From assembly GCF_009759685.1 (NCBI RefSeq), contig NZ_CP046654.1, positions 1,922,001 to 1,986,000 on the forward strand: a stretch of DNA of 64,000 nucleotides, written 5' to 3'. Source of the stretch: Acinetobacter baumannii. GTDB lineage: Bacteria; Pseudomonadota; Gammaproteobacteria; Pseudomonadales; Moraxellaceae. Every line of letters begins with the position of its first letter. The first letter of the stretch is position 1. Both the position numbers and the translations under genes were made by a program. The notes under the pieces are model-generated. The model was not told the DNA's origin. It did no database searches and worked only from the letters and a program-made list of their open reading frames with translations. Below, piece after piece: positions 11,755 through 16,098 of the stretch.

Positions 11755-13809
11755 ATGGGTCATGTTGATTACGATAGCACATTGATCGTCGGCTCTTTTA
11801 TTGCGGCTGGCGCTATTTGCTATATTGTGATTTCCATGGAGCAGTTAATATTTAAGCAAACTTATAAAAAGATTGAGCCGTTTATTCTATTACTCAATGG
11901 ATTATTACTCGCAGCAGCGATTAGTATTGTCCATATTGTCGGCATGCATGCTTACCATTTATTTGAAGCAGCTTCTTCGAACGTTCCTTTAATTACACTG
12001 GCTTTTGGAATTAGTGCTGTACTTTCAAGTGTCGCAATTTGGCTGACTTCTCGTTTTACACTTCCTATATTTAGACTCATTTTAAGCTCAATCATTATGG
12101 GAATTGGGATTTCTGCTTCTTATTATGTGAGTATGTTAGGCTGGAATATTGATATTTATAAGAAAGACTATACCTCTTTTCTTATTTTATTTTCTGTTTT
12201 AATTGCCATGAGCGGGTCGGGACTAGCTTTCTTGCTGGCCTATAAATTAAAAGAAAGTGAACGTCACCGTATAAGTTTAAAATTAGCCTTTGCAGTGATG
12301 ATGACCCTAAGTATTATGGGGATGCACTATACGGCACTTATTTCGACAAATATTACTGATAAGTTTGTAAGCCAATATCAGGCTGAGCATGACTTGCTGT
12401 TATTTACAATTATTTTAGTTACCTGTCTGGTGCTGGTCGCGAGTTTTATTGTTGCCGTGCTTGAACAACGACTGAACCAGCGAAATCTAGAACTGCGCAA
12501 AGCCAATAAAGAATTAGCCAACCTCTCTATTCAAGATAACTTAACTAAATTACCAAACCGACTTTATTTAGTGGATTACGCCGAAGTTCTCCTGTCAGAT
12601 CACCGTTATAAAGACCAAAAAATTGCTTTTCTCTATATTGATTTAGACCGTTTTAAATCGGTAAATGATGCGTTTGGACACCACTTTGGTGATCAACTGC
12701 TTATACAAATGGCCAATCGTTTACATTGGCAACTCAATGAAAAATGTAAATTGCTTAGAATTGGTGGGGATGAGTTTTTACTAATTGCTGAAAACACTGA
12801 TACTGAAGAGGCAATGCAACTTGCTGAAAAAGTATTACATCTTATTCAAGACAGTTACCAAATTTCCGGTAAAGAAATTAATATTTCAGCAAGTCTAGGT
12901 ATCGCACTGTTCCCTGAACATGGGCAAAATGTTCAAGACCTGCTGATGAATGCCGATGCTGCCATGCTGATGTCTAAGGAGCAGGGCCGCAATACTTATA
13001 CCGTCTTTAGTTATTCTACCCATCAACAAGAAACAAGAAGTCAGTCAAAACTGATCAATGATTTATACAAAGCAGTCGAAGAAAAACAATTTGTTCTCTA
13101 CTACCAGCCAAAATTTAATACCAATCTTGAGATTTGTGGGGTAGAAGCACTCATTCGCTGGAACCATCCGTCCTTAGGTATGCTGACACCGCATATGTTT
13201 ATTGGTGGCGCAGAAAAGACAGGTTTAATTATTCCAATGGGATATTGGGCGCTTGAGCAAGCTTGCCAACAAATTCAGGAATGGGAACGTAGCAATACGC
13301 AGTTTTATCCTATTGCAGTCAATTTATCGGCCTTGCAGTTCGAAAATAAAAAGCTCTTTAGTACTCTCGAAGGCTTATTAAAAAAATACCAAATTCAGCC
13401 TCATCACCTCATTATTGAAATTACCGAATCAACCGCAATGCGGCATATCGACTTAAGCATTCGTGCTTGTGAACGACTGCGCGATATGGGTATTCGGGTG
13501 GCAATTGATGACTTTGGAACAGGGCACTCAAGCTTCTTATATTTAAAAGATTTACCAGTCGATGAACTTAAAATTGACCGTGGATTTATTGTCGATTTAA
13601 AACCGGGCTCAAAAGAAGAAGTCATTTTAGAAAGTATTATTCATTTGGCGAAAAAGTTAGGTTTAACCGTAACAGCCGAAGGGGTGGAAACACAGCAACA
13701 AGTTGAGATTTTAACACGCTTGGGCTGTCAGCAGTTCCAAGGTTATTTGTTGGGTATGCCTGTAAATGTAGGGCAACTGATTCAGTCGCAAGGTGCTCAT
13801 TTTGTTTAA
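11755..13809 (+). CDS. MHYT-GGDEF-EAL membrane cyclic-di-GMP synthase/phosphodiesterase
   Basis: Inner-membrane bifunctional signalling protein of 684 residues. The first 235 residues form seven hydrophobic helices with MHYT-type His motifs (MHAYHL at 64-69 and MGMHYTAL near 185), a fold proposed to sense copper-bound gases such as O2, CO or NO. The GGDEF domain has an intact GGDEF near residue 337 and lacks the RxxD inhibitory site just before it. The EAL domain begins with VEALIRW near 463 and keeps the other catalytic signatures (NLSALQF, EITES, IDDFGTG, LKIDRGF, TAEGVE, QGYLLG). Both activities may therefore be live; which one dominates is not readable. The ATG at 11755 has GGAAG 6 bases before it. 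It is a single gene with no partner. Confidence 0.92.
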   Translation: MGHVDYDSTLIVGSFIAAGAICYIVISMEQLIFKQTYKKIEPFILLLNGLLLAAAISIVHIVGMHAYHLFEAASSNVPLITLAFGISAVLSSVAIWLTSRFTLPIFRLILSSIIMGIGISASYYVSMLGWNIDIYKKDYTSFLILFSVLIAMSGSGLAFLLAYKLKESERHRISLKLAFAVMMTLSIMGMHYTALISTNITDKFVSQYQAEHDLLLFTIILVTCLVLVASFIVAVLEQRLNQRNLELRKANKELANLSIQDNLTKLPNRLYLVDYAEVLLSDHRYKDQKIAFLYIDLDRFKSVNDAFGHHFGDQLLIQMANRLHWQLNEKCKLLRIGGDEFLLIAENTDTEEAMQLAEKVLHLIQDSYQISGKEINISASLGIALFPEHGQNVQDLLMNADAAMLMSKEQGRNTYTVFSYSTHQQETRSQSKLINDLYKAVEEKQFVLYYQPKFNTNLEICGVEALIRWNHPSLGMLTPHMFIGGAEKTGLIIPMGYWALEQACQQIQEWERSNTQFYPIAVNLSALQFENKKLFSTLEGLLKKYQIQPHHLIIEITESTAMRHIDLSIRACERLRDMGIRVAIDDFGTGHSSFLYLKDLPVDELKIDRGFIVDLKPGSKEEVILESIIHLAKKLGLTVTAEGVETQQQVEILTRLGCQQFQGYLLGMPVNVGQLIQSQGAHFV

Positions 13810-13923
13810 CCCAGATATTTGGTTAAATTTAAAAACTACTACTTAATATAATATCTAAAATAATAATTTAGTTAATCTAATGAAAAATAATAAGAATTTT
13901 TAAAACTTGTCATAAATTCCACA

Positions 13924-13952
13924 TTGACACTTCTAAACTCTCAGATTATCCT
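13924..13952 (+). promoter_or_regulatory. Sigma-70 promoter of the structured RNA
   Basis: Perfect minus-35 TTGACA at 13924-13929, a 17-base spacer, and minus-10 TATCCT at 13947-13952. It is one of the best promoter matches seen in this window. Transcription would begin near 13959, exactly where the first hairpin of the structured element starts, which supports both calls. Confidence 0.65.
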
Positions 13953-13958
13953 TTGCCT

Positions 13959-14142
13959 GCTGGCCTACATTGCCAGCCGGTTGTCGCAGACCGATTAGTA
14001 AAGGCATCAGATTATTCCCTCTGAGGAGTAGTCTTGTGTGTACAATCGTCCCTCGCTCGTTGCGGTAGGACGAGTGAGGGACACCTTTGGGTGTGCTGAT
14101 TCTTTACTATCAGTCTGCGAACCCTTGCTCGTTCTGCCACCA
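13959..14142 (+). ncRNA. C4-antisense-like structured RNA
   Basis: Non-coding stretch with dense nested structure. Hairpin 1 is GCTGGC/GCCAGC (13959-13977). A long imperfect stem pairs 13985-14010 with 14096-14119: seven base pairs CGCAGAC/GTCTGCG, then about sixteen more with small bulges. Inside it lie a CCTC/GAGG hairpin, a 13-pair stem GTCCCTCGCTCGT/ACGAGTGAGGGAC (14048-14060 with 14070-14082, one G-U), and CACC/GGTG (14082-14093). The single-stranded tail CTCGTTCTGCC (14128-14138) can pair with 14064-14074 of the inner hairpin. This plan resembles the C4 antisense RNA of phages P1/P7; from memory, multi-copy C4-like small RNAs have been reported in A. baumannii. The 3' end is not defined by the sequence. 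Confidence 0.65.
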
Positions 14143-14187
14143 TAATCTTTTATTAATGCTTTGGCAGAACTCCCCAAATAAGGAGTT
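14131..14187 (+). promoter_or_regulatory. Two consecutive hairpins, the second masking a ribosome-binding site
   Basis: The first hairpin pairs GTTCTGCCA (14131-14139) with TGGCAGAAC (14162-14170), nine perfect pairs. The second pairs AACTCC (14168-14173) with GGAGTT (14182-14187) across an 8-base loop and buries the AGGAG Shine-Dalgarno of the mini-ORF at 14192. The first hairpin competes with pairing of 14128-14138 to 14064-14074 inside the C4-like element. The first and second hairpins overlap by three bases, so they also compete. This is what a translational switch would look like. Confidence 0.5.
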
Positions 14188-14191
14188 GGCT

Positions 14192-14221
14192 ATGCATACT
14201 ATTTTTACCCCTCCCAGTTAG
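14192..14221 (+). CDS. Nine-codon mini-ORF behind masked ribosome site
   Basis: ATG at 14192 encodes MHTIFTPPS and stops with TAG. A strong AGGAG at 14181-14185 lies 6 bases ahead of the ATG, good initiation geometry in an otherwise non-coding stretch, and is sequestered by a hairpin. In P1-type immunity regions the C4 RNA controls a small ORF placed immediately downstream; this frame occupies that place. It could be a leader peptide, or the stub of a longer ORF lost by mutation. There is no evidence of expression. Confidence 0.3.
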   Translation: MHTIFTPPS

Positions 14222-14283
14222 TCTTTATGCAGTTTGATCACCTTTAGGTTTTCAGGCGTCAGTTCTTCACGACTAAAAATCAT
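14218..14283 (-). pseudogene. Possible protein-coding remnant, antisense to the region below the structured RNA
   Basis: Minus-strand frame from ATG at 14283 to TAA at 14218 encodes 21 residues (MIFSREELTPENLKVIKLHK plus a final Asp). The frame is open for eight more codons upstream. The composition is protein-like and the codons are more GC-rich than the surrounding AT-rich DNA. The stop codon overlaps the mini-ORF stop on the other strand. No start with a ribosome site is visible. I read it as a possible fragment of a decayed mobile-element gene, but chance cannot be excluded at this length. Confidence 0.25.
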
Positions 14284-14415
14284 ATCAACAATAAAACTTG
14301 AGATGCGTTAGGGCAGTCTTTGGGGCCTTTGCATGCTTTTTTTGCTTAGAGCAAAAGTTGCAGTCGTTTTATCTCTTTTAAACACAACAAGAAATTATTT
14401 TATAACGGTAACTAT

Positions 14416-14979
14416 ATGCCATATTCAGATCTCTCATTTCGCGCGTTAAGCGTGCTCCATAAGTCTCGATATCTTTTTAATAAACATGGTTTTCATAACG
14501 TAGGAGTAGACCGCATTGTGCGAGAAGCAGAGGTGCCAAAAGCTTCGTTTTATAACTATTTCCACTCTAAAGAACGGCTTATTGAAATATGCCTACACTT
14601 TCAAAAAGACGTCTTAAAAGAACAAGTGCACTCAATCATTTACATACAAAAAGATTTAATCTTGCGTGAAAAACTCAAGAAGATTTTCTTTTTACATACC
14701 AGTCTGGATGGTTATTATCACTTGCTATTTAGGGCTATTTTTGAAATTGAGAAACTCTATCCCGCAGCCTATCAAGTGGTTATACAATATCGGCATTGGT
14801 TAACTACTGAAGTTTATAAATTGCTTTTAACTGTGAAGAAAGATGCTACGAAAAGCGATAGCGATATGTTTTTATTTACATTAGAGGGGGCCATTATTCA
14901 GCTGCTAGATGAAACGAGGGGTGATACGAGAGAACTGTTATTCGCTTATATTTTAAAGGGTATTTTTCTTAAAGATTAA
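14416..14979 (+). CDS. TetR-family transcriptional regulator
   Basis: A 187-residue one-component repressor. The N-terminal helix-turn-helix covers about residues 14-58 (FNKHGFHNVGVDRIVREAEV, then ASFYNYFHSKERLIEICL). The helical C-terminal ligand and dimer domain is not recognisable to a named subfamily. It shares the GVDxI, SFYNYF/TFYKYF and SKExLIExCL motifs, and an LYP...Y R.W segment near residue 115, with the TetR gene at 15196-15768, so the two are probably paralogues. It is convergent with that gene. The long leader (13.95-14.41 kb) contains the structured RNA, which might read into this gene. Targets are unknown. Confidence 0.88.
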   Translation: MPYSDLSFRALSVLHKSRYLFNKHGFHNVGVDRIVREAEVPKASFYNYFHSKERLIEICLHFQKDVLKEQVHSIIYIQKDLILREKLKKIFFLHTSLDGYYHLLFRAIFEIEKLYPAAYQVVIQYRHWLTTEVYKLLLTVKKDATKSDSDMFLFTLEGAIIQLLDETRGDTRELLFAYILKGIFLKD

Positions 14980-15037
14980 TTTATTAAAATCTATATGTTT
15001 ATTAATTGATATATTTAGAATAACTAAATTTATATAG

Positions 15038-15078
15038 AGTTCAGGCGGTTGTGCTTTTAAAACATATCGGCCTGAACT
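15038..15078. terminator. Inverted repeat between convergent tetR genes
   Basis: Perfect 9-base arms AGTTCAGGC (15038-15046) and GCCTGAACT (15070-15078) around a 23-base spacer, lying between two convergent genes. It may serve as a bidirectional terminator, although the T-tract is short. A regulator-binding site is the alternative. Confidence 0.45.
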
Positions 15079-15195
15079 TTATATTGAACCAGATAAAAAA
15101 ACAGATCTGATCACCTGATAGAGCATGTATTACAGATCCTCTCATCTTCAAAATAAAACTTATAATATGGTAAGGAACCGTAATAATTAAATTTT

Positions 15196-15768
15196 TTAAG
15201 CAGCTTCATATTTTTGTTTTGTTTCAAGCTCAATGAGTTTATTTATATAAGACCATGTTTCTTCAGAGTTAATTTCTGGTTTGTTAATTGTCCCGTCAAT
15301 AATAAGCCCATCTATAATGTTAAGAAAAAGACTGCTTAATACTTTTGGATCTTCAATTTCTAACTCTAAAAATATAGATAAAACTAAACTGTAAATCCAT
15401 TCACGGTATTTATTTACTTGTTTTTTAATAGAAGGATAGAGCTGCAGGACTTCTATCGTTGCTTTTTTAAATAAACAACCACTAAAATCTTCAGTGTTAA
15501 TCCAGTCGATATACCAATTAAAAATACTTTTCAGTTTATTTAATGGGTCATCTACACTATTAACTTTATCTAATAAAGAAGTTTGGACTTCTAAAATTCT
15601 TCGGCGAAGACACTCTTCAATTAAAACTTCTTTAGAAGAGAAGTACTTATAAAAAGTCATTTTTGCAACTTTAGATTCAGCAATAATTTTGTCTACCCCA
15701 ATTGAGGTATAACTTTTCTGATTAAAAAGGGTCATTGCTGTTGTTATAATCGTTTCTCTTTTTGACAT
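15196..15768 (-). CDS. TetR-family transcriptional regulator
   Basis: A 190-residue regulator with an N-terminal helix-turn-helix (FNQKSYTSIGVDKIIAESKV, then MTFYKYFSSKEVLIEECL, about residues 15-55). The C-terminal domain carries a single Cys in DFSGCLFKKATIEV, a position at which several TetR subfamilies have a conserved GC(P/L)F motif. I chose the ATG at 15768 (MSKRETIITTAM) because GGGG precedes it by 6 bases; the frame opens five codons earlier. It is divergent from the diiron gene at 16099 with about 330 bases between, which contain two palindromes, so it likely controls that gene and itself. Confidence 0.88.
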   Translation of the reverse strand: MSKRETIITTAMTLFNQKSYTSIGVDKIIAESKVAKMTFYKYFSSKEVLIEECLRRRILEVQTSLLDKVNSVDDPLNKLKSIFNWYIDWINTEDFSGCLFKKATIEVLQLYPSIKKQVNKYREWIYSLVLSIFLELEIEDPKVLSSLFLNIIDGLIIDGTINKPEINSEETWSYINKLIELETKQKYEAA

Positions 15769-16098
15769 TGGTTGCCCCGTCATAGATATTTTTTGATTAA
15801 CTTTGCTATTGTAAAGTATGAAAGCTTAAATAAAACTTATTTAATGATATTTAAAAAATTATATTTATTCAATAGCTTGGTTTGCCTTGATAAATAAAGA
15901 AATAAATATTTTATTGGCAATAGTTTACTTTTTTAAATAATATTAATTAATCCATTGATTTGTTGAGATAATAATCATAATATCAATTCGTTAAGTATGG
16001 GTATAAGGAATTTATCCTTTTTACGTTTGAATACGTAATGGAAATAGAGGGATAGCCTTTAGCTTAACTATAAGAAAAACTTTTTATTGAGAATGATT
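15769..16098. promoter_or_regulatory. Divergent intergenic region with two adjacent palindromes
   Basis: About 330 AT-rich bases between the divergent tetR and the diiron gene. Two perfect inverted repeats lie nearly back to back: AAGGA-ATTTA-TCCTT (16005-16019) and TTACGT-TTGAAT-ACGTAA (16021-16038), about 60-95 bases before the diiron gene. Spacing and symmetry suit a dimeric TetR operator. Neither can be a terminator of an upstream gene, since none reads toward it. No confident minus-35/minus-10 pair could be picked out. Confidence 0.5.

Follow-up and report, generated by a model that had tools for sequence, protein, structure and literature searches.

The locus described here raises the question of what a promoter-driven, strongly folded RNA does between a cyclic di-GMP gene and a tetR gene of Acinetobacter baumannii. 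It lies in a stretch of 64,000 nucleotides (nt) of the chromosome (assembly GCF_009759685.1, contig NZ_CP046654.1, forward-strand positions 1,922,001 to 1,986,000), which we call the window and whose own numbering is used below. A first-pass annotation likened the RNA to the C4 immunity RNA of phages P1 and P7 and proposed that it stands alone on the chromosome and acts in trans on incoming phage; it overlooked that the downstream tetR gene is part of the unit. Positions 13924-14979 form a single regulatory cassette, in which a P1-type C4 immunity leader is followed by a TetR gene at the position of the P1 antirepressor. The features recognizable from sequence are a C4 RNA, a1/b1 sites, two competing predicted folds, conserved coupling to a TetR subfamily, and pairing codes that differ between almost all copies of one genome. 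We consider it probable, with considerable room for doubt, that the choice between a leader:C4 fold and the C4 fold decides whether transcription reads through into tetR.

C4 identity and the two competing folds

The segment 14058-14144 is a full-length match to the Rfam C4 family (RF01695), with a covariance model score of 61.6 bits at a gathering cut-off of 45. The C4 stem-loop domain covers 14064-14138, and the GG motif at 14064 makes the position before GGT a candidate 5′ end produced by RNase P, with the GGW cut motif taken from a study of A. baumannii small RNAs (sRNAs; Weiss et al. 2016, PMC5320573). All parts of the cassette are on the plus strand. A sigma-70-type promoter is present at 13924-13952 (TTGACA 13924-13929, a 17-nt spacer, TATCCT 13947-13952) and aligns in 13 copies from the same genome. 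Taken alone it is not above chance, as 7 promoter-like sites occur in 13800-15200 compared with 5.6 in shuffled sequences. The transcript would start near 13959, where the 5′ hairpin GCTGGC-CTACATT-GCCAGC begins (13959-13977); its loop, CUACAUU, is that of Region 1 in Weiss et al. 2016.

Folding of the RNA from the expected start, 13958-14190 (233 nt), gives -96.3 kcal/mol and a z-score of -6.0, which none of 200 shuffles equals. This predicted precursor fold consists of the 5′ hairpin, a long leader:C4 stem and a 14-pair inner stem, in which an anti-5′-arm at 14048-14061 pairs with C4 positions 14069-14082, while an anti-3′-arm at 14160-14170 (TTTGGCAGAAC) pairs with the C4 3′ arm. If the leader is left out, the predicted structure of 14063-14190 is a classic C4 (-50.6, z -5.3) with three stems and with a′ and b′ exposed. 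Following the P1 naming, b′ is the loop of hairpin P3 (14101-14108 in the predicted C4 fold) and a′ the single strand behind P3 (14115-14121). The leader carries complements to both: the a1 site TCGCAGA at 13984-13990, in the place equivalent to the annotated a1 of P1, is an exact 7-nt complement to a′, and the b1 site TAGTAAAG at 13996-14003 is an exact 8-nt complement to the b′ loop, with which it covaries in orthologues. The C4 fold is not the minimum-energy structure once the leader is included, and the precursor is thus predicted to be able to fold either as leader:C4 or as C4.

Much of the first-pass annotation is borne out by these results: the promoter, the 5′ hairpin, the long-range stem (the leader:C4 stem), the membership of the C4 family and, with a1/b1 sites preceding C4, the resemblance to the P1/P7 layout. 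Its inner stem exists as well, with 14 rather than 13 pairs. The structure that it drew as C4 is one of two alternative folds, formed with the leader, since it is the leaderless RNA that folds as C4.

Copies and cargo of C4 cassettes

The RNA is not alone on the chromosome. Nineteen C4 matches above the cut-off are present in this genome, and the search for further Acinetobacter copies found C4 in 127 of 149 genomes; 15 genomes, including this one, carry 15 to 26 copies. When genomes were sampled across the whole family, a C4 match was present in 32 of 119, 15 of them outside the genus, with 8 of 16 genera represented. Comparisons between copies were made on 120 oriented loci: 100 hand-chosen regions from the roughly 150 best-scoring matches, the 19 copies of this genome, and a second unit in one region. 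This set was drawn from the best-scoring matches and weak C4 copies are unsampled in it.

The common order is promoter, 5′ hairpin, a1/b1, C4, mini-open reading frame (mini-ORF) and cargo gene. The cargo of the 19 copies is a TetR gene in 13, about 270-320 nt downstream of C4, a small lipoprotein-like gene in four and a phage-type gene in two. The lipoprotein-like proteins (85-96 amino acids; loci L008, L009, L014 and L018) were called by eye, and the one that was tested had no Pfam or NCBIfam match. Of the phage-type copies, L013 is followed by a Bro-N protein and L005 by a DUF927 protein at the Pfam cut-off. Clustering of the cargo showed that the C4 leader also heads lipoprotein-like or membrane-protein-like genes elsewhere; the cluster of the 94-amino-acid type comprises 20 loci in 15 Acinetobacter genomes. 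Across the set of 120, the 5′ hairpin occurs in 42/42 TetR copies, 20/20 small-lipoprotein copies and most other non-phage copies, and in 0/28 phage-type copies. A TTGAC promoter together with the hairpin recurs in 40 of the 42 TetR-type copies.

In this genome the coupling involves one TetR subfamily. The cassette TetR has 22 matches in a search of the genome. Those to the 13 TetRs that stand behind a C4 rank highest (E 5.8e-42 or better, 41-100% identity); none of the other nine (E 2.3e-20 or weaker, 29-45% identity) is preceded by a C4 within 5 kilobases (kb) on its own strand. The tetR gene is free of internal stops in all 13 cassettes, and the helix-turn-helix is highly conserved across the 13 proteins. 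Peptide patterns derived from an alignment of these proteins retrieved 218 loci in named Acinetobacter genomes. In each of the best 80, which come from 25 Acinetobacter genomes, tetR is preceded at a distance of 245-336 nt by a C4 of the same orientation.

The minimum-energy folds computed with the leader separate cassettes from phage-type copies. Leader:a′b′ pairing is predicted in 39 of 42 TetR and 48 of 50 other cassettes, the C4 stem being kept in 3 and 0, respectively. In phage-type copies leader pairing is predicted in 6/28 and the C4 stem is kept in 21/28. For the copies of this genome, with transcription just past C4, the leader-using fold is better by 0 to 9.6 kcal/mol in computed energy.

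Covariation and privacy of the pairing codes

The leader and C4 codes of a cassette are matched to each other. The hairpin loop is complementary to its own leader over at least 7 nt at 92 of 120 loci, compared with 6.8% of 12,320 cross pairs, and to its own downstream region at 71 of 120 loci, compared with 5.1% of cross pairs. The leader:a′b′ duplex has an energy of -27.2 for own and -21.6 for cross combinations, with the own combination better in 89% of the sampled comparisons, and four further helices show the same direction in this test, which also covered the anti-5′-arm and the anti-3′-arm. When leaders were swapped among the copies of this genome, the interaction energy changed from -9.4 (own) to -5.1.

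Orthologues of the window locus were compared as seven sequences, from the window, five other genomes and G047. They carry five different codes, and each C4 pairs best with the leader of its own allele. Leader and C4 change together, while the promoter, hairpin, Shine-Dalgarno region and tetR stay recognizable; compensatory changes are thus found among orthologues as well as paralogues. In the G047 orthologue (L159) an insertion of about 1.46 kb parts the leader from C4, with tetR retained. Three sister genomes (G135, G083 and G004) have no C4 match at this locus. The DNA next to the EAL gene in G135 (L151 520-1150) and G083 (L152 548-1290) is AT-rich and without a C4 match, and L151 holds a stretch that resembles tetR by eye.

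Within a genome the codes are nearly always private. The inventory covers four genomes, with one opposite-strand match dropped in each of G000 and G145, and with G053 lying outside it. In G000 (19 C4s), G007 (20) and G145 (24) every C4 has its own combination of a′ and b′. In G083 (26) a single pair shares both codes, which is a leaderless unit and its adjoining cassette. A private code for each copy fits insulated self-control.

Comparison with P1 and classes of C4 units

The annotation of the P1 record places a1 and b1 upstream of c4 and has a2 and b2 follow c4, ahead of icd; the sequence itself shows the sites in this order. The cassette and the P1/P7 immI operon share the C4 fold, the a′/b′ loops, the a1/b1 sites in the leader and the position of C4 between promoter and gene. 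They differ in that the window copy has tetR as cargo and P1 has icd-ant, that Acinetobacter adds the 5′ hairpin, behind which a1 and b1 lie, and that the window copy has lost a2/b2. Since tetR replaces ant, the window cassette may be said to work like the immI operon rather than to be one.

PMC5320573 states that P1 C4 covers a ribosome-binding site. In what we call class I, a2/b2 are kept over the Shine-Dalgarno sequence of a mini-ORF that often has 30 codons, as in L001, L002, L004, L006 and L007 of this genome. Class II retains a1/b1 and has lost a2/b2. The window copy belongs to class II: its Shine-Dalgarno sequence AAGGAG and nine-codon mini-ORF (MHTIFTPPS, 14180-14221) have remnants of only 5 nt (a2) and 4 nt (b2). 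Complementarity of the loop to the downstream Shine-Dalgarno sequence, considered for every copy, holds in class I only and is ruled out for the window. Among 246 non-redundant C4 units, 61 are class I, 116 class II, 30 leaderless candidates and 39 unclassed. Some coding constraint is visible in the mini-ORFs of class I, where the third-position share is 0.45 (154 pairs, which are not independent), and those of class II have no codon periodicity (0.32 over 2,443 pairs). A type I toxin-antitoxin system with the mini-ORF as small hydrophobic toxin was dropped for the window, given the lack of coding constraint in class II; PADLOC gave no match for one mini-ORF, TetR and two cargo proteins.

Leaderless C4s, single or tandem, adjoin some cassettes, mostly with another code. 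Tandem units with differing b′ loops are found directly upstream of a full C4-TetR cassette in L205 (289-544) and L199 (305-560), and the same arrangement is seen in L191 (upstream of 473), L143 (1116-1430) and L025 (1302-1557); the sRNAs s066-069 of strain AB5075 resemble it by position. It recalls the orphan immunity arrays of polymorphic toxin systems, in which extra units also stand beside a full cassette, with the difference that those encode protein and the C4 arrays are RNA. Filtering of the 30 leaderless candidates and hand removal of L127, L132, L102, L089 and L183 reduced them to 23 units, among which 17 codes occur. Two of these codes are identical to one found in class I, and another two contain, or are identical to, one found elsewhere in class II. 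As a memory of other alleles they gave little signal: only 1 of the 17 fits class I Shine-Dalgarno regions better than shuffles do (P<0.05).

Relation to the sRNAs and TetR-type regulators of AB5075

Both the C4-like sRNAs of Acinetobacter and the TetR-type regulators are already published. PMC5320573 gives 21 C4-like Group 1 sRNAs of A. baumannii AB5075 with their positions and reports them to be expressed and processed. They consist of the Region 1 hairpin and a C4 domain; six are without Region 1 and some are tightly clustered by position. Phage or host targets in trans are proposed for them, and a term search of the available text, to which the neighbour Table S1 does not belong, found no tie to tetR. 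The window RNA has the same pattern, a Region 1 hairpin with the CACAUU/CUACAUU loop and a C4 domain; these are apparently the same RNAs. PMC9802203 (Perez-Varela et al. 2022) describes 11 TetR-type regulators and one pseudogene (TTTRs) with a conserved helix-turn-helix in AB5075. Random activation is reported for four members (ABUW_1645, 1959, 2818 and 3353), which convert virulent-opaque cells to translucent ones. What sets each of these activations is not named in the available text, and no RNA element in the TTTR leaders is given for the ON/OFF choice. A full-text search found no paper joining C4 and TTTR, with "C4" being too short a term and the papers on Rho, CsrA and SrvS control of the switch lying outside its coverage.

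The C4-headed TetRs resemble the TTTRs in number, conserved helix-turn-helix, dispersed loci, order and strand, the AB5075 genes being known by position, not by sequence. If TTTR locus tags are read as kilobases, their median distance to a Group 1 sRNA is 6.4 kb compared with 74 kb at random, and 0 of 20,000 draws were as close; with a scale of 1.005 the P value is 0.0003 and with 1.018 it is 0.009. A rigid shift was ambiguous, with nine TTTRs matched in either orientation. A gap alignment of the 12 TTTRs, each at its nearest Group 1 sRNA position (0222 at its own tag), with the 13 TetR cassettes of this genome separates the orientations, with a total misfit of 436 kb in the better, reversed one and 1,350 kb in the other. 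The four best solutions pair the window with ABUW_3353, and strands agree in 11/11 pairs. A second AB5075 sRNA, s073, 21 kb from s071, may be the partner of 3353 instead. The array-bearing L143, an orthologue of L015 with a 93% identical flank, lies 143.5 kb from the window orthologue in G008; the corresponding distance is 138.5 kb in this genome and about 144-145 kb in AB5075 (cluster s066-069 to s071). The agreement of distance and alignment therefore makes ABUWs071/ABUW_3353 the most likely identity of the window copy by position, and its TetR-family regulator (187 amino acids, 14416-14979, Pfam TetR_N 2.3e-12) the probable ABUW_3353 orthologue by order and strand.

From this map comparison the C4-headed TetRs apparently are the TTTR virulence-switch family. 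C4 is a candidate for the switch because it leads tetR units that are apparently the randomly flipping TTTRs. By the order match three of the four stochastic TTTRs (1959, 2818 and 3353) are class II, numbers that are too small to judge.

Possible mechanism

The following steps can be proposed for the window copy. One transcript from about 13959 would cover the leader, C4 and, if read through, tetR. If the C4 fold forms, RNase P could cut the precursor, C4 would accumulate and transcription would stop before tetR (OFF). Pairing of the leader with the C4 segment would instead prevent C4 formation and let polymerase read into tetR (ON). Free C4 might then pair with a1/b1 of the next nascent leader and favour the C4 fold, so that C4 helps to make C4. 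Through such self-promotion the reported random ON and OFF states could arise. In class I copies C4 could, in addition, mask the leader-peptide Shine-Dalgarno sequence in the way reported for P1; class II copies, that of the window among them, would be left with leader pairing alone. Rho-dependent stopping before tetR is assumed. In P1, covering of the ribosome-binding site by C4 causes a Rho-dependent stop of the downstream genes.

Several observations weigh against this proposal. A weak hairpin followed by T7 lies between the mini-ORF and tetR (14303-14343) and looks like a terminator, yet the hairpin is no stronger than shuffles (z 0.42), and a strict terminator rule is satisfied by only 8 of 49 TetR loci (a non-redundant subset of the 80; mononucleotide shuffles 0.00). 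The P1 precursor is predicted to keep the C4 fold under the identical computation, whereas the precursor of the Acinetobacter TetR cassettes is predicted to prefer leader:C4; a leader:C4 fold is therefore not required for C4 action in general. The Rfam c4-a1b1 model (RF03163) has no match in 13900-14420 even at E 1, and three window orthologues score 23-29 bits, below its cut-off of 46.7. In the leader swap no more than 6 of 19 copies interacted best with their own leader, and L003, L005, L008 and L019 interact about equally well with foreign leaders. The leader is not specific to TetR, because other cassettes carry lipoprotein-like cargo. PMC9802203 reports that the RNA SrvS tunes the switch rate and the TTTR ON frequencies, and its available text contains neither "antisense" nor "phage". 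Furthermore, the match to AB5075 rests on approximate locus-tag positions, not on sequence.

The analysis places in the leader of these TetR genes a defined RNA element whose P1 counterpart has a reported mechanism, and it predicts the bases that would decide between ON and OFF. It also bears on two published puzzles: the presence of about twenty C4-like sRNAs in the species, and the differences between their loops, each sRNA having a private code. A more far-reaching version, which we put forward only tentatively, is that the C4 leader itself serves as epigenetic switch for the TTTR network. The RNA would be bistable, its mature product would promote C4 folding in the next transcript, and the OFF state of each tetR would be stored independently in this way, with private a/b codes insulating some dozen switches per cell and leaderless arrays serving as extra carriers of codes in trans. 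A phage immunity circuit would then have been turned into a bank of random gene switches.

Alternative explanations

The strongest competitor, which we nevertheless find doubtful, is that C4, though located next to tetR, works as an sRNA in its own right with other host mRNAs as trans targets, and that Rho, CsrA or SrvS sets the ON/OFF state of tetR at some other point of the long leader. Expression and processing of the Group 1 sRNAs (PMC5320573), the effect of SrvS on TTTR ON frequencies (PMC9802203) and the existence of papers whose titles name Rho and CsrA control of the switch all agree with it, as does the loss of the cis Shine-Dalgarno target in class II. Against it stand the coupling of tetR to C4 at 80 of 80 loci and codes that fit the leader of each copy and not one shared target. 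With one pair sharing both codes within four genomes, insulated self-control fits better than a single regulon.

A domesticated phage-immunity RNA that silences the antirepressor genes of incoming phages in trans, close to what the first-pass annotation had proposed, is unlikely as the main role. The RNA belongs to the C4 family, P1 C4 is reported to act in this way (PMC5320573) and leaderless C4 arrays exist near other cassettes, but the unit carries its own tetR and the target searches gave little. The pattern search, made with the window code only, found a strict a+b target before a start codon in 1 of 175 Acinetobacter genomes, as did a reversed control pattern, and in 21 stretches of IMG/VR. 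None of these 22 matches has a C4 in the available stretch, as judged by our own model R1, which misses some phage-type C4s such as L013, and by Rfam. Among 55 class II codes none matches any of the 28 phage-type sites by at least 9 nt, compared with 2.3% of shuffled codes, and the mean best match is 6.20 versus 6.21. The window code has an 8-nt match to the phage-type region G052_L090, a level that 9.4% of shuffles reach. A phage target in trans for the window code was therefore rejected. Four of 24 class I codes, that of the window not among them, match a single phage-type site, G100_L092, by 10-13 nt, and for this reason other copies may act in trans.

It is more improbable still that the 5′ palindrome is a DNA operator for autorepression by TetR, with the RNA structure secondary: the inverted repeat does lie just behind the -10 element in 42/42 TetR copies and the 13 TetRs share their highly conserved helix-turn-helix, but an identical palindrome heads lipoprotein-like and membrane-protein-like cassettes, the available text of PMC9802203 reports no autoregulation for three of the four randomly activated TTTRs, and the covarying leader and C4 codes would be left unexplained. 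Decaying prophage debris kept by descent alone is hardly credible and already largely refuted by the covariation, for although the RNA family was first known from phages and the locus lacks a C4 match in G135, G083 and G004, with tetR-like traces by eye in G135, the coordinated leader and C4 changes, the 13 tetR genes without internal stops and the strong RNA structure (z -6.0 and -5.3) all speak against it.

Surroundings of the cassette

The flanks and the setting are as first annotated. An ORF of 684 amino acids with GGDEF/EAL domains (Pfam) ends at 13809 upstream of the cassette, the TetR ORF begins at 14416, and no long ORF lies inside the RNA region. The nearby ORFs include no phage-like gene; besides the GGDEF/EAL and two TetR ORFs they encode a haem-oxygenase-like protein (just below the Pfam cut-off), RF3 (Pfam) and ilv products (by eye). 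In the phage and plasmid collections, entries under the name "Acinetobacter phage MD-2021a" have the appearance of contigs from bacterial chromosomes, and several "plasmid" entries are as large as whole A. baumannii chromosomes. The second TetR-family gene (15196-15783, minus strand) has 32% identity to the cassette TetR over part of its length and no C4 upstream. Between the two TetR genes, 3′ of the cassette tetR, an inverted repeat (GTTCAGGC / GCCTGAAC, 15039-15077) was seen by eye and may mark the end of the cassette transcript.
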